From Alistipes sp. (lineage in GTDB: Bacteria > Bacteroidota > Bacteroidia > Bacteroidales > Rikenellaceae): a stretch of DNA of 34,909 nt. Below are positions 5,111 to 32,317 of the stretch, piece by piece; position 1 is the first letter of the stretch, and every line of letters begins with the position of its first letter. The stretch covers positions 1 through 34,909 of the forward strand of contig JAFTWZ010000043.1 in the NCBI GenBank assembly GCA_017465055.1. The letters run 5' to 3'. Position numbers and translations under genes: made by a program. The notes beneath the pieces were generated by a model. That model did not search any database. It saw nothing but the letters and a program-made list of their open reading frames with translations, and was not told where the DNA came from.

Positions 5111-5881
5111 TTAGTCGTTTCTTTTTCGGTTGCGCTTCAAAAACTCGCGAGCAAGGCTAAGGTAGTTTGTCGAGCCTGTGGCCGAGGCGTCATAGAGCAT
5201 TATAGGTTTGCCGTGCGACGGTGCCTCGCCAAGACGTATGTTACGCTGGATGATGGTCTCGTACGTGAGATCGCCAAAATGTTCGCGCACCTCGCCGACA
5301 ACCTGGTTGTTGAGCTTGTTGCGCATATACATAGTGAGCACAAAGCCCTCGATATCGAGGTTTGGGTTTAGGTGTCCCTTGACCTTCTGTATGGTATTAA
5401 GCAGTTTGCTTAGTCCCTCGAGGGCGAGGTATTCGCACTGCACCGGCACCAATACTGAATCGGCGGCCGTAAGGATGTTCACGGTAGTAAAACCCAAAGA
5501 TGGCGAGCAGTCGATGAATATATAGTCGTAGCTGTCGCGTACCGAGTCGACAATACCCTTGATGATATGGTGGGCATTCTCCATAGTCGATAGTTCGGTG
5601 TCGGCCGCCACAAGGTTTATCGACGATGGAAGTAACCATAGCTTCTTGACATCTTCCGAGTGGAGTATCACCTCCTCGGCCTTGCACTCGCCCACAATAC
5701 ATTCGTAGATGCCCGGGAGATTGATGTCGAAGCCGAGTCCCGAGGTAGCATTGGCCTGGGGATCAGCATCTATGAGCAGCACCTTCTTGCCCAAGAGAGC
5801 CACTGATGCTGCGAGGTTTATGGCCGTTGTGGTCTTACCTACGCCACCTTTCTGATTCGCTAATGCAACAACTTTTGCCAT
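5111..5881 (-). CDS. parA: Chromosome partitioning ATPase ParA (Soj)
   Basis: A ParA/Soj/MinD-family P-loop ATPase that dimerises on ATP, binds the nucleoid non-specifically and drives movement of ParB-bound origins. It shows the deviant Walker A motif KGGVGKTT at 10-17 with its signature first lysine, then LLIDADPQANATSG near 35-48 and a Walker B-like YIFIDCSPSLG near 119-129. The length of 256 is typical of the chromosomal form without an added DNA-binding domain. It is first in the run parA-parB-DUF5683-transglycosylase-mnmE, and a candidate promoter lies at 5923-5930. ParA here is next to parB and on a chromosome-like segment rich in core genes, so a plasmid partition role is unlikely. 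Confidence 0.97.
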   Translation of the reverse strand: MAKVVALANQKGGVGKTTTAINLAASVALLGKKVLLIDADPQANATSGLGFDINLPGIYECIVGECKAEEVILHSEDVKKLWLLPSSINLVAADTELSTMENAHHIIKGIVDSVRDSYDYIFIDCSPSLGFTTVNILTAADSVLVPVQCEYLALEGLSKLLNTIQKVKGHLNPNLDIEGFVLTMYMRNKLNNQVVGEVREHFGDLTYETIIQRNIRLGEAPSHGKPIMLYDASATGSTNYLSLAREFLKRNRKRND

Positions 5882-5922
5882 CTATATTCTGCTATTTCGT
5901 TTTCGTTACTAAATAATTCTTG

Positions 5923-5930
5923 CAAAAATA
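5923..5930 (-). promoter_or_regulatory. Candidate -7 box for parA
   Basis: On the minus strand this reads TATTTTTG, a match to the Bacteroidota TAnnTTTG -7 element, about 42 bases before the parA start. I see no good TTG -33 element at the usual distance, so support is partial. Confidence 0.5.
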
Positions 5931-5954
5931 AGCATTTTCTCCGATTTATCTCCC

Positions 5955-5981
5955 TTGTTTTTGAAAAATTATATATCTTTG
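5955..5981 (+). promoter_or_regulatory. Candidate promoter of the CPBP protease gene
   Basis: A TATCTTTG -7 box (5974-5981) follows a TTG at 5955-5957 with 16 bases between, somewhat shorter than the 20 seen at other promoters in this window. It leaves a leader of about 48 bases before the ATG at 6036. Confidence 0.5.
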
Positions 5982-6035
5982 TTTGAATTTTGCTCCTATG
6001 CAGTATGTGTGCGAGCATTTTATAGTGTTTGAATA

Positions 6036-6815
6036 ATGAAGTTTATTGTAGATATCGTCGCGAGGCTCGGCCTCTTTGCCATACTATTTCTGCTTATGCA
6101 GGTCATTGCAGCGTGGCTTATGCCGCTATTGTCGTTTGGCGATGCAGACTTAGGGCGCATCTTGGCCTACACACTCTCGATGTCGCTTATGATTGTGATT
6201 CTTAGGCTATGTAACCGTGAGTCGTTACTTCCTGCCGAGCCTATTATGCACTCGCGTCGTGGATTTAACCCTCTGTTGATACTCTATGGTGTAGTCGTGA
6301 CGATAGCACTGAGCATCGTGCTTGCTCCACTGGGGGGCTATCTGCCCGAAGATAGTCGCGAGTTTAGCGACAGCCTCTGGACATTGGTCTTGGTGGTCTT
6401 TGCTGCTCCGATATTTGAGGAGGTACTCTTTCGCGGCAGACTCTATGGTCTGCTTCGAACTAAGGCGTCGCCTATGGTCTCGGTGTTGCTATCGTCGCTG
6501 ATGTTTGGCCTTATGCACCTGCAGCCTGCCGTTATGCTTGAGGGCGTGCTTATGGGACTACTCTTTAGTTATGCCTACCTGCGTTCGAGGTCTATATTTG
6601 CACCGGTCATACTACATATGTGCAACAACGCCTTAGCCTATGCCCTCAAGGTGTTGTCGTATGGCGAGCGTCCGCTACTCGAGCTTGTTGATAGCCGCCA
6701 ATACTACCTCGTTATATACGCAGCATCGGCAGTAATTGTCGTAGTGTCGTTTGCGCTTATGATTCGTTTTATGGTGCGCTACAACAGACGTGGAACGAAA
6801 TCTTCAGATAAGTAA
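6036..6815 (+). CDS. CPBP-family intramembrane metalloprotease
   Basis: A polytopic inner-membrane protein of the CPBP (Abi/CaaX protease and bacteriocin-processing, PF02517) family. The 259 residues hold about seven hydrophobic segments. The three family motifs are intact: EEVLFRG at 128-134 (paired glutamates and the arginine), FGLMH at 157-161, and HMCNN at 194-198 (second histidine with asparagine). The family includes eukaryotic Rce1 and bacterial proteins tied to bacteriocin self-immunity or peptide maturation; the substrate here is unknown. The gene stands alone on the plus strand, divergent from parA and convergent with the HEPN-like pair, and shares a hairpin with it at 6823-6871. 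There is no nearby peptide precursor gene that I can see. Confidence 0.9.
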   Translation: MKFIVDIVARLGLFAILFLLMQVIAAWLMPLLSFGDADLGRILAYTLSMSLMIVILRLCNRESLLPAEPIMHSRRGFNPLLILYGVVVTIALSIVLAPLGGYLPEDSREFSDSLWTLVLVVFAAPIFEEVLFRGRLYGLLRTKASPMVSVLLSSLMFGLMHLQPAVMLEGVLMGLLFSYAYLRSRSIFAPVILHMCNNALAYALKVLSYGERPLLELVDSRQYYLVIYAASAVIVVVSFALMIRFMVRYNRRGTKSSDK

Positions 6816-6822
6816 CAAAAGA

Positions 6823-6871
6823 GGCCTATATTTCAGAGAGATACAGAATACTCCTCTCATCCATATAGGCC
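6823..6871. terminator. Shared hairpin between convergent genes
   Basis: A 9-base stem GGCCTATAT (6823-6831) pairs with ATATAGGCC (6863-6871). An inner stem GAGAG (6836-6840) pairs with CTCTC (6854-6858). It lies between the CPBP stop and the stop of the 527-residue gene on the other strand, so it probably terminates both. U-tracts are short. Confidence 0.55.
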
Positions 6872-6895
6872 CATTATTAGCTGTTGTGAACGCGA

Positions 6896-8479
6896 CTATA
6901 TATTTCGCTTCTTGTCCATTCGAAGATATACCTTAGGTCCGAAGTAGGTGGGAAACTCAATGGTAGAAATATGTCGTGAGGGCACTCCCAGCTCCCTAAG
7001 TGCAATCTTTGCCACCTCCTTAACGTCGCTCTCATATTTGTCGTAGACAATGCATATCTCCATCGATGGATTGCGATTAACAACGTGACTAAGTCGCTCG
7101 AGCTGATCCAAAACATCGTACTTCTCGCTTGTATAGCTCAGCAGGTAACTTAGCTCTATAAAGTCACAATAGTAGTAGTTATAGTAGAGATCTATGACTG
7201 GCGTATTGTCGAAAGGCTCACTCGTGCTTCTACGCGTCTTAGATATCTCTCCAATCTCCTGTTGAGCGTTGTTCCAATTGCTGAAGAGTGGCTCGATAAT
7301 GCCATAACCAGGGACATCCTCGATAAATGGTATCCAGTAGACCAGGTAGTTAGGGTAGTTGTCATCTTCAGCAGCCATAGTATTCAGCTGCTCGGTACGC
7401 TTGTTGATCTGCTTTGCCGAGTTATTTTCCAAGTCGTTGTAGCATAGACGGTCGGCCTGCCAAGCGCGATCGCCGTGGAGTCTGGCAAGCTCGGCATTGT
7501 CCATATTCTTGATCTCCTCGAACGAAGCGCGCTCAAAAGGGATGCTTGTTACCTCGTCCCATAATTGGTATACCACAGTAGTAATGAGCAAAGCGACAGC
7601 TACAGCGACTCCCCACTTCATTAAATTTTTTGTCCAAGTCCATAGCAGACTCACAATGCTCCTGCACAGCTCGCGAATCTCCCTTAAAGTATCTGTTATA
7701 TCCCTCCACGATGACTTTACGATATCGACAAAAAGATCAAACCTATATTTATTAATCCTCCATTGTGCTGCAATACTGTTGAGTATCGTGGGATACTTTG
7801 TGGTTGATACGTAGAACTTAGCCAAAAGCGCAAATATCTGTGAATTAATATCTTCGATGCTCCACTCTTTTTTAGCAGCTATTATAGCGCCAGTGTGTAC
7901 ATACTCATTGCGAGCATCTTGGATAATTTTGACTAATTCTTCGGGAAGTATTTCCTTAGTTTGGCCTTTCTTGGCATGTTCATTGATACGCTTAATAGCA
8001 AATTTAAGATAGTATTCAATTAGGAATCCACCTAAATGTAAGATTTTGCGTTTCTGATTTTGATTATCTTTTTCATTATTATCATCTTCAATATACTCAC
8101 ATTTAGGGGATACAAACTCAATACTTTTTCCCTTCTTTTGGGCCTCTTGAAGCCAAAAATTTTTCACATCATCTCTATGGACAATATCATACGAGCGGTA
8201 CTTGATATCGAAAAAGTATTCGACGATGAATTTGTTGAACTCTATGCAAAGCGCAGAATTTTGTTTAATCATTTTCTCGATTATAGGCTCTACGCCAGCA
8301 ATCAAGCGTGCGAATACATTTAGGCTCGATTGAGTGTCGTTACTCCTCCTATTAAACATTCGCAACATATTGTATGTAGAGTCTCCAAGTGGAGCACTCT
8401 GTATCATATAATCGATAAATATGTTCGTACAGAACGAGTCGACCTTATACTTACTGAGCTTTTGTCTAATGTTCCTCAT
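6896..8479 (-). CDS. HEPN-like membrane protein, 527 aa
   Basis: Not a family I recognise by name. The N-terminal half (about 1-280) is predicted helical and cytoplasmic. It carries RNEYVH at 190-195, an exact Rx4H motif with Asn after Arg, as in HEPN ribonucleases. The motif sits at the end of a helix (about 180-195) with a helix before it (150-168) and one after (208-226), as the HEPN bundle requires. A charged loop (128-145) precedes it. One membrane helix lies at about 287-306. The C-terminal part (310-527) is likely outside the cytoplasm; its last 75 residues alternate strand and helix (MEICIVYD, then LRELGVPSRHIS) and faintly recall an OmpA-like fold. The first 14 bases overlap the end of the upstream gene, which suggests coupled translation. 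The gene's 5' part is AT-rich. RNase activity and defence role are inferred. Confidence 0.7.
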   Translation of the reverse strand: MRNIRQKLSKYKVDSFCTNIFIDYMIQSAPLGDSTYNMLRMFNRRSNDTQSSLNVFARLIAGVEPIIEKMIKQNSALCIEFNKFIVEYFFDIKYRSYDIVHRDDVKNFWLQEAQKKGKSIEFVSPKCEYIEDDNNEKDNQNQKRKILHLGGFLIEYYLKFAIKRINEHAKKGQTKEILPEELVKIIQDARNEYVHTGAIIAAKKEWSIEDINSQIFALLAKFYVSTTKYPTILNSIAAQWRINKYRFDLFVDIVKSSWRDITDTLREIRELCRSIVSLLWTWTKNLMKWGVAVAVALLITTVVYQLWDEVTSIPFERASFEEIKNMDNAELARLHGDRAWQADRLCYNDLENNSAKQINKRTEQLNTMAAEDDNYPNYLVYWIPFIEDVPGYGIIEPLFSNWNNAQQEIGEISKTRRSTSEPFDNTPVIDLYYNYYYCDFIELSYLLSYTSEKYDVLDQLERLSHVVNRNPSMEICIVYDKYESDVKEVAKIALRELGVPSRHISTIEFPTYFGPKVYLRMDKKRNI

Positions 8480-9713
8480 AGTCGTTTATATAGGTTTTAA
8501 TCGAGTCAAAATTACGTATATCTCGCTGCATATGTCTCATATCCTCCTCAGTCTCGCGCCCCGTGATAATCTTATCGAAGAGCTCAATCCGTTTTGTCTT
8601 GGGCACATTGCTAAAGTCGATAGTCCTTCTATCGATGTTAAGATACATATAGTAGCCTAATAGCCCAACGATAGCGACTATGATGGTAATAAGTACCCCC
8701 TTTTTGCCGAAGACTTTACTAAACTTCTCCACATTGTCGATAGACGTTGTCGTTTTCTTAAGCAACGTGCCAGAGAAGAAAAAATCGGTTAGTCGCTCGG
8801 TAATATCGCGCGAACTTCGTTTATTATTAGTTTGGCGAGTAACTGGAGGGCATATCTTTGATGCCAGAAGCAGAATGTATCGGACAATATTATCTATCGG
8901 GGCTGAATAGTTTCTGCTGGTTGCATTGCTTGTCGTAGTACTATCAATAACTCCATTATGATCGACGCTGTTTCTGTATGTGATCAAAGTCTTCATCGTT
9001 GTTTCGTACTCCGTGCCCATATAAAGTCTATTAAGGAGGTTAATCAACAGGGCGAAGTGTCCGATATTTGAACTTACAGAAGTGTAGATATTATCCACAC
9101 TTTTATAACAAATCTCGAGGGGTCGATCTTTGTTCGGTTCATTATTGCGATCATATTTGTAACCAGAGCAACATTCAAGCATATTATACTCTGCAGGTGA
9201 GAGCTCTCTTCTTTCTGATAATAGTTTTAATAGATTTTCGATATCAGAAGCAGATTTATAATTAGCTTTACGAGGAGGTGTGGCGATACAGTCGTGCACT
9301 TTTGCTGCAATCCAAAAATAGGCATAGTTTGACCCAGGGCGGATATCTAATGGGCCATAACCATCCATATATTTCTTTGTCTCGTTACTTAATTTAAGAA
9401 ATGTGCGTATTTCATTTATATAATCTTGGAAGTTCTGTGTTTTATTTGAAGAACCGGAAGAATTGTTTAGCAGGTAGTACAACATACCCTCCAAGTGTAT
9501 CATCAACGATGTGATGTCTAAAGATGCTCGGCGACGCACAGACGAGCAGTTGTATAATAGGTCATACCACAGATTGGCAAACCTACTGCTACCGCTTTTG
9601 TTTAAGTTTACTCGCTGCTCGATATAATTGACCAGATTCTCAATATCATCCTTTTGATTATCGCTTATGTTATAATGCTTAGTGATAGAGTATAAGTTGA
9701 TCCTCCTGAACAT
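8466..9713 (-). CDS. HEPN-like membrane protein, 415 aa
   Basis: Unrecognised by name. Residues 1-335 are predicted helical and cytoplasmic. RNSVDH at 247-252 is a second Rx4H motif of HEPN type, at the end of a helix (about 235-252), with a helix before it (207-230) and one after (272-287), the same arrangement as in the downstream gene. Another long helical segment lies at 60-83. One membrane helix (about 339-358) is followed by a charged 57-residue tail, probably outside the cytoplasm. So both proteins share the order HEPN-like domain, one membrane helix, extracytoplasmic tail. It is first of the two-gene unit, 158 bases after trxA, and overlaps the next gene by 14 bases. No TAnnTTTG promoter is visible ahead of it, so read-through from dnaE-trxA is possible. 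Function is inferred only. Confidence 0.68.
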   Translation of the reverse strand: MFRRINLYSITKHYNISDNQKDDIENLVNYIEQRVNLNKSGSSRFANLWYDLLYNCSSVRRRASLDITSLMIHLEGMLYYLLNNSSGSSNKTQNFQDYINEIRTFLKLSNETKKYMDGYGPLDIRPGSNYAYFWIAAKVHDCIATPPRKANYKSASDIENLLKLLSERRELSPAEYNMLECCSGYKYDRNNEPNKDRPLEICYKSVDNIYTSVSSNIGHFALLINLLNRLYMGTEYETTMKTLITYRNSVDHNGVIDSTTTSNATSRNYSAPIDNIVRYILLLASKICPPVTRQTNNKRSSRDITERLTDFFFSGTLLKKTTTSIDNVEKFSKVFGKKGVLITIIVAIVGLLGYYMYLNIDRRTIDFSNVPKTKRIELFDKIITGRETEEDMRHMQRDIRNFDSIKTYINDYEEH

Positions 9714-9795
9714 AGATAGTAAAGTGGGTTAGTGTCTATCTTAATGGCGAGATAGAGCCTATGATGTATTGGGTAGTAGTGTTATAGTAGTATAA

Positions 9796-9846
9796 CCGAC
9801 CATCACCTTGCCGAAGACTTATTGTCAACAGCAAGGTGTTAGTCGG
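9796..9846 (-). terminator. Long hairpin between trxA and the HEPN-like pair
   Basis: CCGAC (9796-9800) pairs with GTCGG (9842-9846) and CACCTTGC (9804-9811) with GCAAGGTG (9831-9838). The two stems are separated by a symmetric three-base internal loop, and the apical loop has 19 bases. It follows the trxA stop on the minus strand but lacks a strong U-tract, so it is either a trxA terminator, an attenuator or an RNA-stability element for the genes that follow. The rest of the 9714-9871 gap holds only a weak 6-base stem (9736-9741 with 9750-9755). Confidence 0.55.
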
Positions 9847-9871
9847 CCTACTTCAGAGATAGGGCGCGACA

Positions 9872-10189
9872 TTAGAGCATCGCCTCGATCTTAGCCTTGA
9901 GCTGCTCCTTGTCGGCAGTACCTACGTGCTTGTCAACCTGGTTGCCATCCTTGAAGAAGAGGATTGTAGGCACGTTGCGAACACGATACTGTGCTGCAAT
10001 CTCGTCGCCATCCTCGCCTACGTCGCACTTGCAGATGATAACCTTGCCGTCGTACTCCTCAGCAAGCTCGTCGATGATAGGGCTCACCATTCGGCAAGGA
10101 CCACACCAAGTAGCCCAGAAATCGATAACTACGGGCATACCCTTGCCCATTACCTCGTCAAAATTCTCGTTGTTTAGTTTCAATGCCAT
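9872..10189 (-). CDS. trxA: Thioredoxin
   Basis: A small cytoplasmic dithiol-disulfide oxidoreductase of 105 residues, the normal thioredoxin length. The active site ATWCGPCRM is at 26-34 with the redox cysteines C29 and C32. The buried aspartate (VIDFWA, D23) and the cis-proline turn (RNVPTILFF, near residues 71-79) are present. There is no signal peptide. It lies 12 bases downstream of dnaE on the same strand, an arrangement often seen in Bacteroidales, so it is probably co-transcribed with it. Confidence 0.97.
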   Translation of the reverse strand: MALKLNNENFDEVMGKGMPVVIDFWATWCGPCRMVSPIIDELAEEYDGKVIICKCDVGEDGDEIAAQYRVRNVPTILFFKDGNQVDKHVGTADKEQLKAKIEAML

Positions 10190-10201
10190 AACTTTAAAGT
10201 T

Positions 10202-13200
10202 TTATATGTTAATGAAATAGTTGAACTCGTTGCGTACCAAGAAGTTCATAAATTCTGCACTCGTAGCCACGCGATACTTCTTCGACGTGAGCTTTATCTT
10301 TACATCGTTCTGCCTATCGACAATCATCAGCTGGAGAGTCGTCTTGCCAGGATTAGCCTTTACCGCCTCCATAAGCATCTCGGTAAGCGTAGGACATATC
10401 TCGTTGATGTCGAATTCGATGCGTATCTTTGACACATTCTCCGCTACCTCGGCGAGGTGCTGGATGGATTGTATGCTGTAGACCAAAGGCTCGCCCTCCT
10501 TGCCAAAGCGTGGCTGCACACGACCACGCACGAAGAGGTAGTTGTTGACCTCAATGAAGAGGCCAAAGCGCTCGTACTCCTTGCTATATAGCAGAAATTC
10601 GTGGTGTGAGTTGTAGTCCTCGAGCACAAAACGTGCATACCGACGGCCATCCTTAGTAGTGAGCGGCGTGACAGAGGTGACGATGCCTGCGACGGCAAGC
10701 TCCTTACCATTGAGCAGTGTCAAGTCGTCCAAGTCGCCAAGCTCGGCCTGACACATCTTGCTAAGGATAAAGTCAAAGCGGTCTAATGGGTGGCCCGAGA
10801 GGTAGAGACCTATGACCTCGCGCTCCTTGTTTAGCACAGCAATATTCGACCAATCCTCGGCCTCGGGGACACTCGGCTGGGGGATATCCGTACCCGTTTC
10901 GCTGAACATACTGAAGAGGCTCTGCTGGGCGTTGTTCTTCTCGGACTGCACGCGCTGGCCGTAGCGAATAAGTAGATCGAGATATACCGTACCATTGCTA
11001 TCCTCGGCAAAGAAACGCGAACGGCAGTGATCTATGAGCGAGTCGAAACCGCCTGCATAGGCAATGCTCTCCAAGCACTTGCGGTTAACAACGGTGTAGT
11101 TCGTGCGCTCCATAAAGTCGTATATCGACTTGTATGGGCCATTCTCCATCCTCTCGCGAACGATGGCCTCCGAGGCTGCTGCTCCGACACCCTTGATAGC
11201 TGCAAGGCCAAAGCGCACGTCACCACTCTTCGATGTCGAGAAGCGTATCATCGAGGCGTTGACATCGGGTCCAAGTACCTGAATGCCGATGTTCTTGCAC
11301 TCGGTCATATAGGTGGTCACCTCCTTGATATCTTGTAGGTTGCGGCTGAGCACCGTAGCCATATACTCCGAGGGGTAGTGAGCCTTGATATAGGCCGTTT
11401 GGTAGGCTACCCACGAGTAGCACGTAGCGTGCGACTTATTGAAGGCGTACGAGGCAAACTTCTCCCAGTCGGCCCAGATCTTCTCTAAAACCTTCTCGTC
11501 GTGACCATTGGCCTTACCGCCAGCGATAAACTTGGGCTTTAGCTCGTCAAGTTTCGACTTGATCTTCTTACCCATAGCCTTACGCAGCGTATCGGACTCG
11601 CCGCGCGTGAAGTTGCCAAGCAGTCGCGACAGCAACATCACCTGCTCCTGATAGACGGTAATACCATAGGTATCCTTCAGGTAGCGCTCCATAATCGGTA
11701 TATCGTAGACTATAGGCTTACGGCCGTGCTTACGGTCGATAAAGTCGGGGATATAGTCCATAGGGCCTGGACGGTAGAGAGCGTTCATCGCGATGAGGTC
11801 CTCGAAGGTCGAGGGCTGCAACTCACGGAGATACTTCTGCATACCGGGTGACTCAAACTGGAACGTTCCTACGGTGCGACCTGCGCAGTATAGCTCGTAG
11901 GTCTTCTGATCGTCGATAGGTATGTTGTCAATGTCGATTTCAACGCCGTGCGTCTGCTTTACGGTCTCGATGGCATCTTTGATAATCGAGAGGGTCTTAA
12001 GGCCCAAGAAGTCCATCTTGATAAGTCCCGTATCCTCGATTACGGCACCCTCGTACTGCGTAACGAGCATAAGCTCGCCACTCTCCTTATCTACGGCCGT
12101 ACTCACTGGCACCCAGTCGGTGATGTCGTCGCGGCAGATAATCGTACCGCAGGCGTGAACACCTGTACCACGCACATTGCCCTCGAGCATCTTAGCATAC
12201 TTAATGGTATCGCGCATTACGGGGTCGTTAGACTCCTCGGCCTCCTTAAGCTCCGGAACGGCCATAATCGCGTTACGCAGGTTTACCTTGAGTAGCTTGT
12301 CGCGGTCGTTAGGATCGGGGATACGGTCGGGAATCCACTTACACAGCTGATTGGCCTGAGCAAGTGGTAACTTTTGCACGCGTGCCACATCCTTTAAGGC
12401 CATCTTTGTGGCCATAGTACCATAGGTGATGATATGGGCCACCTTCTCCTTGCCGTACTTCTGCGTAACCCAGTTAAGCACCCTGCCACGTCCATCGTCG
12501 TCGAAGTCGATATCGATATCTGGTAGCGAGATACGGTCGGGGTTAAGGAATCGCTCGAACAGCAGGTCGTATTTAATAGGGTCTATCTGTGTGATGCCAA
12601 GGCAGTAGGCTACGGCAGAACCTGCAGCAGAGCCTCGACCAGGGCCTACAGATACGTCTAACTCCTCGCGCGCGGCACGTATGAAGTCCTGCACGATAAG
12701 GAAGTAGCCAGGGAAACCCATTGTCTTCATAATGTGAAGCTCGAACTTAAGACGAGTAAGTGTCTCGTCATCAAGCTCCTCGCCATAGCGCTTGTGTGCG
12801 CCATCCATAGCTAACTTGGCCAAGTAGTCGGCCTCGAGCTTTATACGGTATAGTTTGTCGTAGCCTCCGAGCTTCTCAATCTTCTTCTTGGCCTCGGCCT
12901 CGGAGAGTACTACATTGCCATTCTCGTCACGCGTGAACTCATCGAAGAGATCTTGCTCGGTGAGCCTTGCGCGATAACCCTCCTCGGTGCCGAAATCCTC
13001 GGGGATGGCAAAGGTGGGCATAATAGGGGAGTGGTCGATAGAGTAGCCCTCGACCTTGTTACATATCTCTATGGTGTTGTCCAACGCCTCGGGGATATAG
13101 TCGAAGATGGCATTCATCTCGGCTGTGGTCTTGAGCCACTCCTGTTTAGAGTAGAGCATACGCTTAGGGTCATCGAGATCCTTGCTCGTGCCCAAGCATA

Positions 13201-23562: not shown

Positions 23563-24498
23563 TTAGAACCAGAATCCCACGCCTGCCGAGAGTCTCTTAG
23601 CCTTAGGACCAGTACCAGCTCTAAACATCTCGATAAACGAGTAGTTGACATAGCCATACAATCTCTTCCATCCGATACGCGCCGTAGCACCGAGCTGAAT
23701 AGGCGTAAGTCGTGCCACGCCATCGATGGTCGTCTTGGGAAATTTATACTTTAGTTGAGAGTTTGCAAGTATGTCAAAATTAACACCTGCCGATATAAAG
23801 AAGTTGCGACCTATATTCCAGTCGAGGGTCATAGGCATATGTAGGTACATCGCCAGCAACTTCGACTTCTTCGTATTGTCATCCAGAGCAACGGCGTGTA
23901 CCATACCATCTCGAAACTCCATTGTGTAGTTGCCTGCAAAAGTGTAGTTTTCCATTCCAAAGCCAAAGGCCATTGAGAATGCCAGTGTTCGCCGTGGGTT
24001 GAGCGGGATATTCATAGTCATTAAATTGATATTGAAGTTGACCGCCTTGAAATTGCTGAACATCAGAGCATTTGCCTCCTCTGGCGGATACATACTATAG
24101 TCGGTATTTGCCAACGTGTTTATGCCCATCTCCAGCAGAGCGAAGTGGTTGATGTTGGGCGAGCCGATGCCACCAAATCCTAAGTATACCTTCTGGTTCT
24201 TAGCCGGCGTTACGTGGCTATTGTGGCTCTCTACGGCAGCGCGACACAGCTCCTCTTTCGACATCTGGTGCATAGTGCCATCCTTGTGCTTTACGTAGTA
24301 GGCAACGCTATCTTGCGGTGCCGACTTAGTGCCCAACTCAAAGCGTGTGCCGTTGAGCTGGAGCGACAGCCTGCCGTTGCTTGACGATATGGCGCTACTA
24401 CCGTCGCTGTCGAGGTGGATGACTATATCGCCCTGCTGTGCCGAGGCAATTCCTATGCTTAGTAGTATCAATGCTAAAGTTAGAAATATGTGTTTCAT
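23563..24498 (-). CDS. Predicted outer-membrane beta-barrel protein
   Basis: A 311-residue exported protein of no recognised named family. The signal peptide ends at IASAQ (17-21). The first part (22-100) contains a basic and polar stretch (YVKHKDGTMHQMSKEEL). The rest alternates hydrophobic and polar residues as strands do (FAMNYTFAGNYTMEF-like pattern, MTLDWNIGRNFFISAGVNFDI, IGWKRLYGYVNYSFI) and it ends in GVGFWF, a terminal aromatic typical of outer-membrane barrels inserted by BamA. It lies 26 bases downstream of the anti-sigma gene and is probably regulated by the sigma factor of the same cluster, which is an inference from position. Confidence 0.72.
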   Translation of the reverse strand: MKHIFLTLALILLSIGIASAQQGDIVIHLDSDGSSAISSSNGRLSLQLNGTRFELGTKSAPQDSVAYYVKHKDGTMHQMSKEELCRAAVESHNSHVTPAKNQKVYLGFGGIGSPNINHFALLEMGINTLANTDYSMYPPEEANALMFSNFKAVNFNINLMTMNIPLNPRRTLAFSMAFGFGMENYTFAGNYTMEFRDGMVHAVALDDNTKKSKLLAMYLHMPMTLDWNIGRNFFISAGVNFDILANSQLKYKFPKTTIDGVARLTPIQLGATARIGWKRLYGYVNYSFIEMFRAGTGPKAKRLSAGVGFWF

Positions 24499-27348: not shown

Positions 27349-27472
27349 AGCTGATAGTTTTTTTAGTTAACAAAATGTGTTGTTTGTAAGCTACGGCGAC
27401 TGGCACAACTAATATGCCAAAGGCAGAAACGGTTCATTTTGCGGCTCCACGGCTCTTTGTGCGCGATATTTG

Positions 27473-28930
27473 ATGGCGAAGTCGAAAACCATATCTATGA
27501 GAGTCCTATTTACAACGATATTTATGCTATTGGTCTGTGCCACACTATCGGCACAGCAAGATATGAGCTTTGATGAGGCTCTAGGGGCTATGCTTGCGCA
27601 AAATCACGCGCTCGAGAGCCAGCGACATATGGCCGATGCTGCCTACGATGATATGCGCGCGGCAAGGGGATTGCGATGGCCGCAAGTTAATGTGATAGGC
27701 AGCTATACGCTCTTGCAGCGGAGTATAGATATTGACCTCGGAGGTCCTAAAGGTATTGTCACCAACTCTATAGGATCACTTATTAAAGAGGGCGTTGCAA
27801 ACGGCATCTTAAGCAGTGGGGCAGCATCGCTAATAGCCCAGGGGTTAGCACCTATCGTAGGCTCCGACTGGCGTTACACGCTACAGAAGCGCTCCGTCGG
27901 AGCGGTGGGCGTCACTTTTGCTATGCCTATATATGCTGGCGGCAGGATAAACATCGCCAACCGGGTAGCTCGGTTGCAGCTCGAGGCTGCTGGACTAAAC
28001 TTTGATGCTACGAAGTCGCACCTACTGACAGAGCTTGTCGAGAGATATTACGGGGTTATCGTTGCTCGCGAGGTGGTAAACGTTAGACGCGAGGTTGTCG
28101 CAGCTACACACCGCCACCTTGCAGATGCCAAGGCTATGGAGGCCGAGGGTATCGTTGCGCATAGCGTGGTATTATACCTAAGCTATCGTCTCTCGGAGGC
28201 TAAGAGTGAGCTTAGTGATGCGGAGAGTCGTGCGCTTATTGCTGAGCGTGCGTTAGACGCCTTAGTGGGCTATAATGGTGTTAATCCTTCGGATAGAATA
28301 TTTCTATGTAGTGATATACAAGCTATTGATTACTATAAAGATATAGCTATTAAGCTAAACCCGCTACTTCAGGAGGCCGATATAGCGCGCAGCCTTGCCA
28401 ACGAGGGCGAGAAACTATCTCGCGCAGCGCTCCTCCCCGAGGTCGCTGCTATGGGTGGAGCTGCGCTGTATAGCTACCAACTTAGCGATATGGTGCCGCG
28501 CTGGATGGTGGGCATCGGCATTAACTTTAAGCTCTTCGATGGCCTTGCAAGCATCAGACGTATGCAGGCTGCCAAGAGTCGTGCAGAGGGCGTAGATGAG
28601 GCTGTCGGAAGTGCAAGAAATGACATTCTATTACTTATTGATAAAGAGTATTATACGCTTGTCAATTCACTGCTTAGTGCAGACTCATCGCGCCAAGCCA
28701 TCGCATTTGCCGAAAGCTACTACAACTCCGCGAAGGAGGGTTTTGTCGAGGGTATAACATCAAGTTCCGACCTTATGGACGCCTGCGCCGAGCTGGCCGC
28801 CTCGCGCGTAGAGTATCTCAATGCCGCCTACGAATCGTGTAAGGCGCTGGCACGCTTGCTCGAGGCCGCTGGACTAAGCGACACCTTTTGGGAGTATCGC
28901 GATAGAGGTGAAGTTATCTATATAGAATAA
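27473..28930 (+). CDS. TolC-family outer-membrane efflux protein
   Basis: An outer-membrane channel protein of the OEP/TolC family, which joins an inner-membrane exporter and a periplasmic adaptor. The start at 27473 (ATG, MAKSKTIS) gives 485 residues; a TTG just upstream is less likely. A signal peptide ends near CATLSAQQ. The two helical hairpin repeats of the family are visible: MSFDEALGAMLAQNHALESQRHMADAAYDDMRAARG (first) and the second around residues 275-440 with PLLQEADIARSLANEGEKLSRAALLPEVAAMG. The strands lie in between. It is first of four co-directional genes with an HlyD and two permeases. The 27349-27472 gap before it has no clear promoter of the local consensus. Confidence 0.9.
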   Translation: MAKSKTISMRVLFTTIFMLLVCATLSAQQDMSFDEALGAMLAQNHALESQRHMADAAYDDMRAARGLRWPQVNVIGSYTLLQRSIDIDLGGPKGIVTNSIGSLIKEGVANGILSSGAASLIAQGLAPIVGSDWRYTLQKRSVGAVGVTFAMPIYAGGRINIANRVARLQLEAAGLNFDATKSHLLTELVERYYGVIVAREVVNVRREVVAATHRHLADAKAMEAEGIVAHSVVLYLSYRLSEAKSELSDAESRALIAERALDALVGYNGVNPSDRIFLCSDIQAIDYYKDIAIKLNPLLQEADIARSLANEGEKLSRAALLPEVAAMGGAALYSYQLSDMVPRWMVGIGINFKLFDGLASIRRMQAAKSRAEGVDEAVGSARNDILLLIDKEYYTLVNSLLSADSSRQAIAFAESYYNSAKEGFVEGITSSSDLMDACAELAASRVEYLNAAYESCKALARLLEAAGLSDTFWEYRDRGEVIYIE

Positions 28931-28960
28931 CATTTATATAAACGTTGTAAAAGCATATTT

Positions 28961-29944
28961 ATGAAGCGTAAGTCGATTGTTATATTAAGCATAATATTGG
29001 TCGTAGTAGTGGCTATTATTTGGGCCGTAGTACGCTATGTTAGTCGCGAGAATGCTCCAGTTATTCAGGGTGTTGTCGAGTGTCGTAGTTATCGCGCGTC
29101 GTCTAAGCTGGCTGGGCGTATCGATTCGCTCTTTGTCCGCGAGGGCGACTATGTTCGCAAGGGTCAGTTGCTCTATACAATATCTACGCCCGAGTTAGAT
29201 GCAAAGCTTAGTCAGGTGGCAGCTCTTGAGGCAGCCGCCGAGGCTATGAACCGCGAGGTGGAGCGAGGTGCTCGCAAGGAGCAGATTGTCGCCGTAAGAA
29301 ACCTCTACGAGAAGGCTGTTGTCGGGCGCGACCTTGCGCAAAAGAGCTACGTAAGGGTGAAAAATCTCTATGAGAAGGGCGTTGTACCTCGTCAGCAGTA
29401 CGACGAGGCGTTGGCTAACTACGAGGCTATGGTGGCAACGGCAAATAGCGCTAAGGCCGAATACGATCTTGTTATCGAGGGTGCTACGTCGGAGCAGAAA
29501 GAGGCTGTGGCGGCTCAGGTGCGCGAGGCCCAGGCGGCTGTGCGCGAGGTCGACTCCTATCTGAGCGATGCACGCGTCTATGCACCAATATCGGGACCTG
29601 TGTCGAGTATTGTCTCCGAGCCTGGCGAGCTTGTATCCTCGGGATACCCCGTTATCACGTTGCTCGATTTGGGAGAGTTGTGGGTTACATTTAATATCCG
29701 CGAGAGTGATATGCACGCTCTTAAGCTCGGCGACACCTTCAAAGGCTCTATCCCAGCCTTAGATAGTAGTGTCGACCTCGAGGTCTACTACATATCAGCC
29801 GAGGCGGACTTTGCTACGTGGAGCGCAACGCGTGCGCGCGGCGGTTTTGATATCCGCACGTTTGAGGTGAGGGCTAGACCATTGAAAGATGATAGTGGCC
29901 TACTTCCTGGTATGAGCGTAGTTGTAAATAGCAATAGATTATAG
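28961..29944 (+). CDS. HlyD-family periplasmic adaptor protein
   Basis: A 327-residue membrane fusion protein that bridges an inner-membrane exporter and the TolC-like channel. One membrane anchor lies at about 5-26. The lipoyl half-domains and long alpha-hairpin follow: ASSKLAGRIDSLFVREGDYVRKGQLLYTI (first lipoyl half), a coiled-coil region of about 75-200 rich in Ala and Glu, and ARVYAPISGPVSSIVSEPGELVSSGYPVITLLDLGELWVTFNIRE (second half and beta-barrel). The C-terminus is LPGMSVVVNSN. It lies 30 bases after the TolC gene and 8 before the first permease. Confidence 0.9.
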   Translation: MKRKSIVILSIILVVVVAIIWAVVRYVSRENAPVIQGVVECRSYRASSKLAGRIDSLFVREGDYVRKGQLLYTISTPELDAKLSQVAALEAAAEAMNREVERGARKEQIVAVRNLYEKAVVGRDLAQKSYVRVKNLYEKGVVPRQQYDEALANYEAMVATANSAKAEYDLVIEGATSEQKEAVAAQVREAQAAVREVDSYLSDARVYAPISGPVSSIVSEPGELVSSGYPVITLLDLGELWVTFNIRESDMHALKLGDTFKGSIPALDSSVDLEVYYISAEADFATWSATRARGGFDIRTFEVRARPLKDDSGLLPGMSVVVNSNRL

Positions 29945-29952
29945 CTGTTAAT

Positions 29953-31125
29953 ATGTTTGTTCGTAGCGTATTATCGGTATTTAAGCGAGAGCTACGTGAG
30001 GTAGCAAAATCGCGTCTCTACCTCGCTGTGTTGGTATTGTTGCCATTGGTTATGCTCTCGCTCTTTACGGTAATGTTCTACCGCGGTACTATCGATGAGT
30101 TGCCTATTACCGTTGTCGATAATGACAGAACTCCGATGTCGCGCCAGCTATGCTCTATGATAGATGCTACCCCTGGTGTTGAGATAGCTTTTAGTGCGCA
30201 GTCGATCGGCGATGCAGAGAGACAACTGCTTAGTTCTGAGGCTTTGGCCGTGCTCTATATAAAGCGTGGCTTCGAGTCGGATATCTATGCTGGTATTCCC
30301 ACTAAGGTGGAGTGCTATCTACCTGGTACGAATATATCGGCCAGTGGCGTCATCGAGCGCGATATTCAGCAGGCGGTACTCACCTTTTCATCGGGCGTAG
30401 CGCTTAATAGAATGGCGGCTATGGGTATCGGCCATAGTCAAGCAATGGTTAATATAATGCCTATTAAAATATTGACAAACACCATTGGCAACCCGTATAT
30501 AAACTACGGTTACTATCTCGCTCCAGTCTTTATGTTTATGGGTGTAGTGATATTTATTGTAGTCTCTACGGTCTATGCCTTTGGTCGTGAACTACGCTAT
30601 GCTACGGCGCGTGAGTGGTTATCTACTGCGAATGATTCACTTGCAGCTGCGGTGGTGGGCAAGATGTTGCCAACTACCATTGCTATGGTAATAAACCTGC
30701 AGCTTGCGATGCTCGTGATATTTGTAGTTATGGGTATGGAGTGCGCTGGGAGCTACCTTGAGTTATCATTAGGTAGCTTGATATTTATTATTGCATATCA
30801 ATCTGTTGCCATAGCTATAGTAACGCTTACCTCAAACCTGCGCTTGGGGCTATCAATAGGAGGAGGTTATGCGGTTATGGCCTTTACATTCTCTGGCGTC
30901 ACCTTCCCTGTGATGGCTATGTACGACGTGGCTCAGTGGTTCTCAAAACTCTTTCCACTCACCTACTTTAGCAATATATTTGTCGATAAAGCTATGCTTG
31001 GTGTAGGCATATCGTACGATATCGGCGACTACCTCGCAATGACTGTTTTTGTACTTCTCGTGCCATTGGTATGGCGCCGATTAAGTAGGGTAGTAGGTGA
31101 TAGCAAGTATTGGTGTAGAGATTGA
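29953..31125 (+). CDS. ABC-2 type transporter permease, first
   Basis: A 390-residue inner-membrane protein of the ABC-2 (YhhJ/YbhR-like) permease family. One N-terminal membrane helix (about 24-44) is followed by an extracytoplasmic domain of about 130 residues that opens with ELPITVVDNDRTPMSRQLCSMID. Then five membrane segments occupy the C-terminal half (near 195-375), with the family's GVTFPVMAMYDVAQWFSKLFPLTYFSNIF motif. It starts 8 bases after the HlyD gene and ends 13 bases before the second permease. No ATPase gene is in the operon, so it must borrow one or use an alternative energy source. Confidence 0.88.
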   Translation: MFVRSVLSVFKRELREVAKSRLYLAVLVLLPLVMLSLFTVMFYRGTIDELPITVVDNDRTPMSRQLCSMIDATPGVEIAFSAQSIGDAERQLLSSEALAVLYIKRGFESDIYAGIPTKVECYLPGTNISASGVIERDIQQAVLTFSSGVALNRMAAMGIGHSQAMVNIMPIKILTNTIGNPYINYGYYLAPVFMFMGVVIFIVVSTVYAFGRELRYATAREWLSTANDSLAAAVVGKMLPTTIAMVINLQLAMLVIFVVMGMECAGSYLELSLGSLIFIIAYQSVAIAIVTLTSNLRLGLSIGGGYAVMAFTFSGVTFPVMAMYDVAQWFSKLFPLTYFSNIFVDKAMLGVGISYDIGDYLAMTVFVLLVPLVWRRLSRVVGDSKYWCRD

Positions 31126-31138
31126 AATAGAATGCGCA

Positions 31139-32317
31139 ATGAATTTAAAATCAATAAATAGTGATAGCTTCTTGGGTGTAGCTATTGTCGAGATACGTAT
31201 GGTGCTCACCGATGGCGGTGCTATGCTTATCCTGCTCTTTGCAATGCTTATCTATACCACCATCTACTCGATAGCCTATGGTCGCGAGGTGGTCGAGTGT
31301 GTAGACATCGCTGTTGTCGACGAGGATAACACTCAGACAAGCAGGCGTATCGTCTCTGGTCTGCGCTCTGGGCCGAATACGAGCGTTGTCTATAATCCAG
31401 TGGATATGAACAGCGCTAAAGACCTGTATTTAAGGCGTAAAGTTCACGCAGTAGTCTATATCCCCGAAGGTCTTGAGCGCAATCTGATTGCTGGGAAGCA
31501 AGCCAATATTGCACTTATGCTCGATGGTAGCCATCTACTTGTCTATCGTCAGGTTTTGGAGCAGGCAACAAAGGATATACTACTTCAAGGCGCCGAGGTC
31601 GAGGTTATGCGCCTTGTAGCCAATGATGTTGATGCCGCAGCGGCCCTCTCTATTGCCTCGCCCGTTAGCTACGATGGCCACGTGCTCTACAACCCATCGC
31701 TCGGCTACGGCTCGTTTGTAATGCCCTCTGTCGTGGTGGTCATAATACAACAGACGCTGGTTATCGGCTTGGCTATGGTGGGAGTGCGGCGCAGGAACTT
31801 GGGGCTTTATCCAAAAGCAAATAGTCTACTTATCACAACAAGAAATGTTATAGCTAAGATTCTGGTCTACGTTGTTATATATAGTGTCAACTTAACTATA
31901 GTATTGCTTACAATATGGCCTCTATTCGGCTTTCCAAACGCTGGCAAGCCTATTGCTATTGCCATCTTGATGCTTATCTATATGGTGGCCGCTACTGCCT
32001 TAGGTCTTACACTTTCGCACCTCTTTACGCGTCGCGAAGCACCACTTATGCTGCTACTATGGAGCTCTGTACCGATACTCCTCCTCGCTGGTGTCTCCTA
32101 TCCGCACGAGGCATTTCCCGAGTGGCTCTATACCATAGGGCGCATCTTCCCGAGTAGTAGTGCAGTCAGTGCCTTTGTTATGGTTGGCACAGCTGGGGCG
32201 TCATTATGGGATGTTAGAAGCGACATATTACAGCTCCTACTCTTAGCCGTTATATATACGGTGTGCGCTATTGCCGCAGAAAAATATTGCTTGATGCGTA
32301 AAAATTGCCATAAATAG
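31139..32317 (+). CDS. ABC-2 type transporter permease, second
   Basis: A second ABC-2 permease of the same layout, 392 residues from M at 31139 (an earlier ATG at 31097 would overlap the previous gene by 29 bases). Its opening segment (MVLTDGGAMLILLFAMLIYTTIYSIAYG) is one membrane helix. The large outer domain has CVDIAVVDEDNTQTSRRIVSGLRS, equivalent to the one in the first permease. The C-terminal half holds five membrane segments, with FGFPNAGKP and LLAGVSYPHEAFPEWLYTIGRIFPSSSAV motifs. The two permeases are related and probably form a heterodimer. The next gene, ald, begins 98 bases on and looks independent. Confidence 0.88.
   Translation: MNLKSINSDSFLGVAIVEIRMVLTDGGAMLILLFAMLIYTTIYSIAYGREVVECVDIAVVDEDNTQTSRRIVSGLRSGPNTSVVYNPVDMNSAKDLYLRRKVHAVVYIPEGLERNLIAGKQANIALMLDGSHLLVYRQVLEQATKDILLQGAEVEVMRLVANDVDAAAALSIASPVSYDGHVLYNPSLGYGSFVMPSVVVVIIQQTLVIGLAMVGVRRRNLGLYPKANSLLITTRNVIAKILVYVVIYSVNLTIVLLTIWPLFGFPNAGKPIAIAILMLIYMVAATALGLTLSHLFTRREAPLMLLLWSSVPILLLAGVSYPHEAFPEWLYTIGRIFPSSSAVSAFVMVGTAGASLWDVRSDILQLLLLAVIYTVCAIAAEKYCLMRKNCHK

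Follow-up and report, generated by a model that had tools for sequence, protein, structure and literature searches.

Bacterial immunity commonly employs HEPN ribonucleases as effectors, and to our knowledge little is known about how such a ribonuclease might be switched by events at the membrane or the cell envelope. Ire1 is a single-transmembrane (TM) protein that links a signal in the lumen to an HEPN RNase in the cytosol, and the Zorya proteins ZorAB form a membrane pair in which one subunit perhaps carries an OmpA-like outer domain. Here we describe a two-gene module, made of genes A and B, found on a 34,909-nt stretch of DNA from Alistipes sp. (Rikenellaceae; assembly GCA_017465055.1, contig JAFTWZ010000043.1, positions 1 to 34,909; this whole stretch is referred to below as the window). 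Both products are predicted membrane proteins with a HEPN-like motif, and we give about an even chance to the reading that the module is a probably acquired operon whose products form an inner-membrane complex and act as a conditional, membrane-tethered ribonuclease pair, with a role that is probably anti-phage or stress-related.

Section 15 of Anantharaman et al. 2013 (PMC3710099) distinguishes three membrane-associated HEPN groups, all of them predictions: DUF4145 with WP-TM, Abi2/SWT1 with an N-terminal TM helix, and an N-terminal HEPN domain with two TM helices and a Zn-ribbon. It proposes that the outer domains of membrane HEPN proteins couple surface stimuli to RNA decay, and the same paper places the KEN domain of Ire1 in HEPN. 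More recently, the part of the DefensePredictor paper available to us (PMC13092281) reported 31 additional validated systems, four of them with HEPN domains, including DS-11, in which HEPN is coupled to CBS in one protein; the available part of PMC9122126 mentions HEPN systems in P4 hotspots, but no pair of the kind described here.

The two-gene module and its second copy

Genes A and B are real open reading frames (ORFs) in the ORF listing of the window, lie on the minus strand, as do all the features of the two genes given below, and overlap by 14 bases. Gene A (8466–9713) codes for 415 residues comprising an N-terminal region, a HEPN-like domain with the predicted catalytic motif RNSVDH (residues 247–252; 8958–8975), one predicted TM helix (residues 339–358; 8640–8699) and a short conserved outer tail free of cysteine (residues 359–415; 8469–8639). 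Gene B (6896–8479) codes for 527 residues, with an N-terminal domain containing the motif RNEYVH (residues 190–195; 7895–7912), HEPN-like by sequence, one predicted TM helix (residues 286–306; 7562–7624) and an outer part of about 220 residues. TM helices were predicted from Kyte–Doolittle hydropathy with a 19-residue mean of at least 1.4, a threshold passed by a single stretch in each window protein (A 340–358, 2.32; B 286–304, 1.91). An earlier note on this DNA had described the overlapping genes and their lengths, the Rx4H motifs with Asn after Arg and one membrane helix per protein, and on each of these points it was confirmed.

The only other copy found is in the Rikenellaceae metagenome-assembled genome SIG182 (SUZS01000002.1; genome G028), where proteins A′ (402 residues) and B′ (470 residues) are encoded in the same order with an overlap of 32 bases. 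Identity to the window copy is 32–33% for A and 29% for B, and the second copy, at a different genomic place, retains the gene order and the overlap together with the motif and the membrane helix of each protein. The motifs read RNNVAH in A′ and RNTYIH in B′, so that R, N and H of both are invariant across the only homologous pair; when alignment columns were shuffled, an invariant RNxxxH arose in 11 of 20000 trials for A and 10 of 20000 for B, and the less strict pattern R[NDH]x3-5H was reproduced 75 times for A and 39 times for B in as many trials. The strongest hydropathy stretch of A′ (321–339, 2.24; two lower peaks reach 1.49 and 1.44) matches the place of that of A, and the strongest of B′ (193–224, two overlapping maxima) that of B. 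The hexapeptide TKRIEL in the outer tail is identical in A and A′. Identity between the copies at first, second and third codon positions is 0.45/0.56/0.34 for A and 0.44/0.59/0.33 for B, a pattern (second above first above third) that fits translated genes. Conservation of Arg and His and constant company of the partner gene, both raised for checking in the earlier note, hold as far as the comparison reaches: R and H are kept in the only homologue of each protein, and B is adjacent to and overlaps A in both of the genomes that hold A, so that the two occur together in 2/2 known copies.

The module is rare in the databases that we searched. A search of 150 relatives with each protein found it in two genomes each, namely the window copy and SIG182. 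A family-wide profile search for A gave 5/268 genomes, made up of the two known copies and three weak partial matches (E 0.0016–0.0071), and an order-wide profile search for B gave 4/393, made up of the window copy and three weak matches (E 8e-4 to 0.008), each interrupted by stops; the weak partial matches of both searches were taken as chance. A phylum-wide search for A returned the window copy only (1/395). For order and phylum, samples of genomes were searched, and SIG182 was not among the matches. A scan of a contig database found one locus, SUZS01000002.1, and reaches close relatives only, because just two peptide patterns were used.

Set beside the published membrane-associated groups, the module shares with them a HEPN protein at the membrane and the proposed control of RNA decay by surface stimuli (PMC3710099, section 15). 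It differs in that a single predicted TM helix follows the motif, rather than preceding the HEPN domain as in the first two groups; with respect to the third, no cysteine follows the TM helix in A or A′, and inspection by eye showed no CxxC beyond the TM helix of B or B′. There, none of the groups is said to pair two distinct membrane proteins. The HEPN-MNT toxin–antitoxin systems are likewise two-gene modules with a HEPN protein, but no MNT nucleotidyltransferase was found here (B has no Pfam match at E ≤ 10), and both proteins are predicted to be membrane-anchored. The likeness to Zorya ZorAB is one of working principle only, both being membrane pairs with one subunit that perhaps has an OmpA-like outer domain, and neither A nor B has a PADLOC match. 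The likeness to Ire1 is also functional, a single-TM protein passing an outer signal to a cytosolic HEPN RNase, whereas the module is bacterial, has two subunits, shows no kinase domain match and has no homology to Ire1 that we could find.

Protein A

Protein A is very likely a HEPN domain protein and, as such, probably a metal-independent endoribonuclease. Its homologue A′ was matched by the Pfam family HEPN_RiboL-PSP (PF18735) at E = 1.7e-4 over residues 129–265 (137 residues). The best Pfam match of a fragment of window A was the MAE_28990 HEPN family (PF18737, E = 0.078), and the sole PADLOC match of A′ was Csx1 over the motif region, at an E-value of 0.15 that taken alone is at chance level. 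For profile–profile comparison with hhalign, a HEPN alignment was assembled from 16 of the 18 PF18735 loci from the order, leaving out L054 (a ParB-like ORF) and L057 (an ORF without the motif) and trimming L058 to its first 260 residues. Residues 120–300 of A aligned with it at a probability of 66.5% and E 5.4e-5 in a single comparison, with R247 and H252 of A falling on the R and H of the family; full-length A gave 45.1%.

Controls point in the same direction. None of 60 column shuffles of the A profile reached the real score (35.2, against a maximum of 17.8), and as single sequences A (25.5) and A′ (23.9) scored above all 133 background segments (maximum 18.2). When the columns for R, N and H were omitted, the surroundings of the motif in A were equalled at 0 of 163 background Rx4H sites and those in A′ at 2 of 163; 15 of the 16 HEPN proteins, all but L067, fitted the motif expression used in this scoring. 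For the upstream acidic residue, often part of Ex3[KR], the outcome is mixed: E75 of A is an invariant Glu in a helix-like stretch and falls in the top 1% of background Glu sites (62 of 6381; 84 of 6381 in A′), with the limits given below. The RNxhxH motif with its context, and the alignment of catalytic residues in register, are thus shared with PF18735 and PF18737. The PF18735 proteins themselves are short, 15 of the 16 having 166–248 residues and one 358; A differs from the two families in its longer N-terminal part, its TM helix and outer tail and its partner B.

Several results pull the other way. The 22.0 bits of A′ lie below the curated cut-off of PF18735 (28.4), full-length window A has no HEPN match in Pfam at E ≤ 10, and PADLOC gave nothing better than E 0.15 for the module proteins. 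E75 lacks the K/R at +4 of the Ex3[KR] pattern, another site in A scores better than it does, and for the upstream acidic helix 60 of 249 background proteins equal or exceed the best score of A. Neither A nor B of the window has a match at E < 0.04 in Pfam, NCBIfam, PADLOC or PHROGs, and a sequence search of the PDB gave nothing at E < 0.1. Matches of A to ORC1_wHTH (E 0.22) and of A′ to phrog_36996 (E 0.019) were taken as chance. The outer tail of A (8469–8630, minus strand) also matched Effector-associated domain 10 (PF19954), but at an E-value of 0.075 that is at chance level, and the tail of A′ had no such match.

Protein B and its outer part

The earlier note had read both proteins as HEPN-like, which stands for A, through the match of A′, the profile register and the motif context, and does not carry over to B, whose profile tests fell within background. 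As a single sequence in the HEPN test, B was equalled or exceeded by 7 of 133 background segments and B′ by 46 of 133, and the surroundings of the motif are ordinary, with 48 of 163 (B) and 27 of 163 (B′) background sites scoring as high, all of which counts against a ribonuclease pair in which both members are HEPN proteins. The case for B as a HEPN protein consists of its conserved motif and its architecture, the fold not being shown by any profile. We consider it possible, if doubtful, that A is a HEPN ribonuclease and B a non-HEPN membrane sensor or inhibitor, its RNxxxH being structural or coincidental. Such a reading agrees with the background-level tests, with a motif context that is not HEPN-like and with the finding that searches of Pfam, NCBIfam and PADLOC, with E allowed to reach 10, return no HEPN match for B. 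It sits less easily with the invariance of R, N and H in proteins of 29% overall identity, seen in so few of the shuffles reported above, and with the best hhalign alignment of B to HEPN, which puts the motifs in register, although the score is weak (1.3–2%, reached in 1 of 60 shuffles). This comparison was made with one HEPN group only, so B may instead represent a different HEPN subtype.

B and B′ have motif domains of very different size, since about 62 residues of B (122–183; 7931–8116, minus strand) just before the motif, and 12 more further upstream, are missing from B′ in the alignment. The longer insert includes an E-x3-K (E155–K159) within a helix-2-like stretch. Paralogy of A and B was not detectable by hhalign (0.7% over the full length, 0.14% for the tails, 0.52% for the motif regions), and a by-eye likeness of their outer tails was rejected, 29 of 60 shuffles being equally high.

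The outer end of B tentatively resembles an OmpA domain, whose peptidoglycan site has conserved Asp/Arg residues. In one hhalign comparison, 59 columns of the B/B′ profile aligned with OmpA domains from the genome that carries the window copy (28.7%, E 6e-4), and none of 60 shuffles scored as high as the pair profile (26.1). The OmpA-like stretch covers residues 450–505 of B (6965–7132, minus strand) and would lack part of the loop that follows strand two. We treat it as a lead only, because the single-sequence control is weak: the score of B was reached or exceeded by 15 of 133 background segments and that of B′ by 2 of 133, a segment of the histidyl-tRNA synthetase scoring highest (24.5). 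Pfam gave no match of the B C-terminus to PF00691.

Other assignments for B and B′ were tried and rejected. SPOR reached 0.42% in hhalign with the B C-terminus; LytR_C had no Pfam match in B, and no comparison set could be made for it, as 0 of 60 genomes of the order held the family at E ≤ 1e-5. Two further matches were taken as chance: that of B′ to PrgO of NCBIfam (E 0.006–0.007), where 16.7 bits fall far short of the cut-off (100), and that of a fragment of B to Dam (PF05869), at E 0.025.

A bolder and rather improbable form of the ribonuclease pair would have A and B each contribute one RNxxxH half-site to a composite HEPN site in the cytoplasm, with the outer domain of B, as a worn-down OmpA-like contact to the wall, gating assembly, such that a breach of the wall by phage or toxin would directly trigger RNA cleavage. 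If true, this composite ribonuclease would be a two-subunit bacterial analogue of Ire1.

Genomic setting and acquisition

The pair is flanked by trxA (9872–10189) and a convergent CPBP/Rce1-like gene (6036–6815). The gap between B and the latter holds an inverted repeat (6823–6871, without strand; 18-nt arms, 78% complementary, 13-nt loop) that is possibly a shared terminator for B and the CPBP gene; a terminator scan restricted to loops of 3–8 did not report it. A promoter scan, with 14 sites against 9.4 ± 2.5 in shuffles, was not used.

The module was probably acquired horizontally as a block, because it is AT-rich relative to the window and absent from comparable loci of the genus. G+C content is 0.39 in A and 0.41 in B, against 0.50 in the rest of the window. 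Thirty CPBP loci from the genus were gathered, including that of the window (L015); 19 without visible trxA were not comparable. The ten with trxA in the fetched flank (L016, L017, L021, L022, L023, L025, L029, L030, L032 and L035; trxA is cut by the locus end in L017 and L030) contain neither A nor B by tblastn (0/10, E ≤ 1e-5), and longer stretches from 18 of these genomes (L093–L110) likewise have no A or B. Instead, the trxA–CPBP interval (6816–9871 in the window) is a tolerant insertion site in the genus and carries other cargo in some genomes: judged by eye, L093 has a PadR-like regulator together with a small membrane protein, L029/L100 a cation-efflux-like gene and L102 a phosphate-uptake operon. 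In SIG182, CPBP-ParA-ParB stand on contig C18 without the module, which is on contig C6. ParA and ParB are 83% and 61% identical between the two genomes, against 32% and 29% for the module, so that the module either diverges faster or was acquired separately in each lineage. Marks of a mobile element were not seen: there is no tRNA, no Rfam match in 5500–10500 and no clear boundary repeat.

Some observations weaken the picture of an acquired defence module. Only two copies are known, so conservation rests on one comparison. No relatives of A or B were found in viral contigs (IMG/VR), plasmids or phages. In SIG182 the module (G+C 0.37 in A′, 0.40 in B′) is barely more AT-rich than its immediate flanks (0.42; 0.44–0.45 further out). 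A place in a defence island, which the earlier note had proposed to look for, was not found: the 20 window neighbours tested by Pfam look housekeeping, with no defence gene seen among them (PADLOC was not applied to these), and PADLOC matched 0 of 10 neighbours of the second copy.

Elsewhere in the window, a 311-residue protein (23563–24498, minus strand) has no Pfam match at E ≤ 1e-4, and an efflux operon (27470–32317, plus strand) codes for an outer membrane efflux protein, an HlyD-type fusion protein and two ABC-2 permeases; none of the four shows an ATPase domain match. The SIG182 copy is adjoined by a 114-residue hydrophobic protein (L011:5549–5893, minus strand), for which PADLOC gives no match, and by a large leucine-rich-repeat protein, BspA-like by eye (L011:2181–5504, minus strand), both on the strand opposite to the module.

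Proposed mechanism

In the mechanism that we propose, the N-terminal parts of A and B would be cytosolic and their tails periplasmic. The cysteines of A and A′, none in the outer tail against 6 and 10 before the TM helix, fit a cytosolic N-terminus of A. Charges lend this orientation slight support in A, A′ and B but none in B′; in A the count is 4 against 3 K/R in 15 residues, which leaves its topology weakly supported. Protein A would be a HEPN ribonuclease held at the membrane and normally restrained, and B its obligate partner, both sensing and restraining. The larger outer part of B might sense an envelope event, such as phage entry or envelope damage, and sensing across the membrane is plausible. 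The signal could then pass via the paired TM helices and release or assemble an A–A or A–B HEPN dimer, which would cut cellular or phage RNA and stop growth in a manner resembling abortive infection. We infer the link to phage or envelope stress solely from the rarity of the module, the signs of transfer, its divergence and the HEPN effector.

The overlapping genes, the HEPN-like toxin candidate, the patchy distribution and the signs of horizontal transfer would also suit a toxin–antitoxin system with no envelope sensing, in which A is the toxin, B a membrane-held antitoxin neutralising it by heterodimerisation, and addiction maintains the module. We regard this as unlikely, for B is the larger protein and its long outer part would be superfluous in an antitoxin, the window copy is surrounded by genes of housekeeping type and no plasmid copy was found. 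Less likely again is a membrane regulatory complex for RNA processing, following an Ire1-like logic in envelope stress and being neither a defence nor a suicide device. The lack of defence genes among the neighbours tested speaks for it, as does the stimulus-dependent RNA degradation that section 15 of PMC3710099 proposes for membrane HEPN proteins; the rarity of the module in our searches, and its divergence next to that of ParA and ParB, are unlike a core regulator.

Conclusions

A literature search, with most subscription journals outside its scope, gave no description or named match of such a pair; the earlier note, too, recognised no named system. The idea of membrane HEPN proteins is already known, while this pair and its architecture appear new, as the published membrane-HEPN groups lack both the layout of HEPN domain, one TM helix and tail and the pairing of different proteins. 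Since the pair is predicted to be membrane-anchored and at least one member looks like an RNA-cutting HEPN protein, an event at the envelope might set off RNA breakdown within the cell. With two mutable motifs and one candidate outer sensor, this compact pair would make the route from surface signal to RNA decay directly testable.

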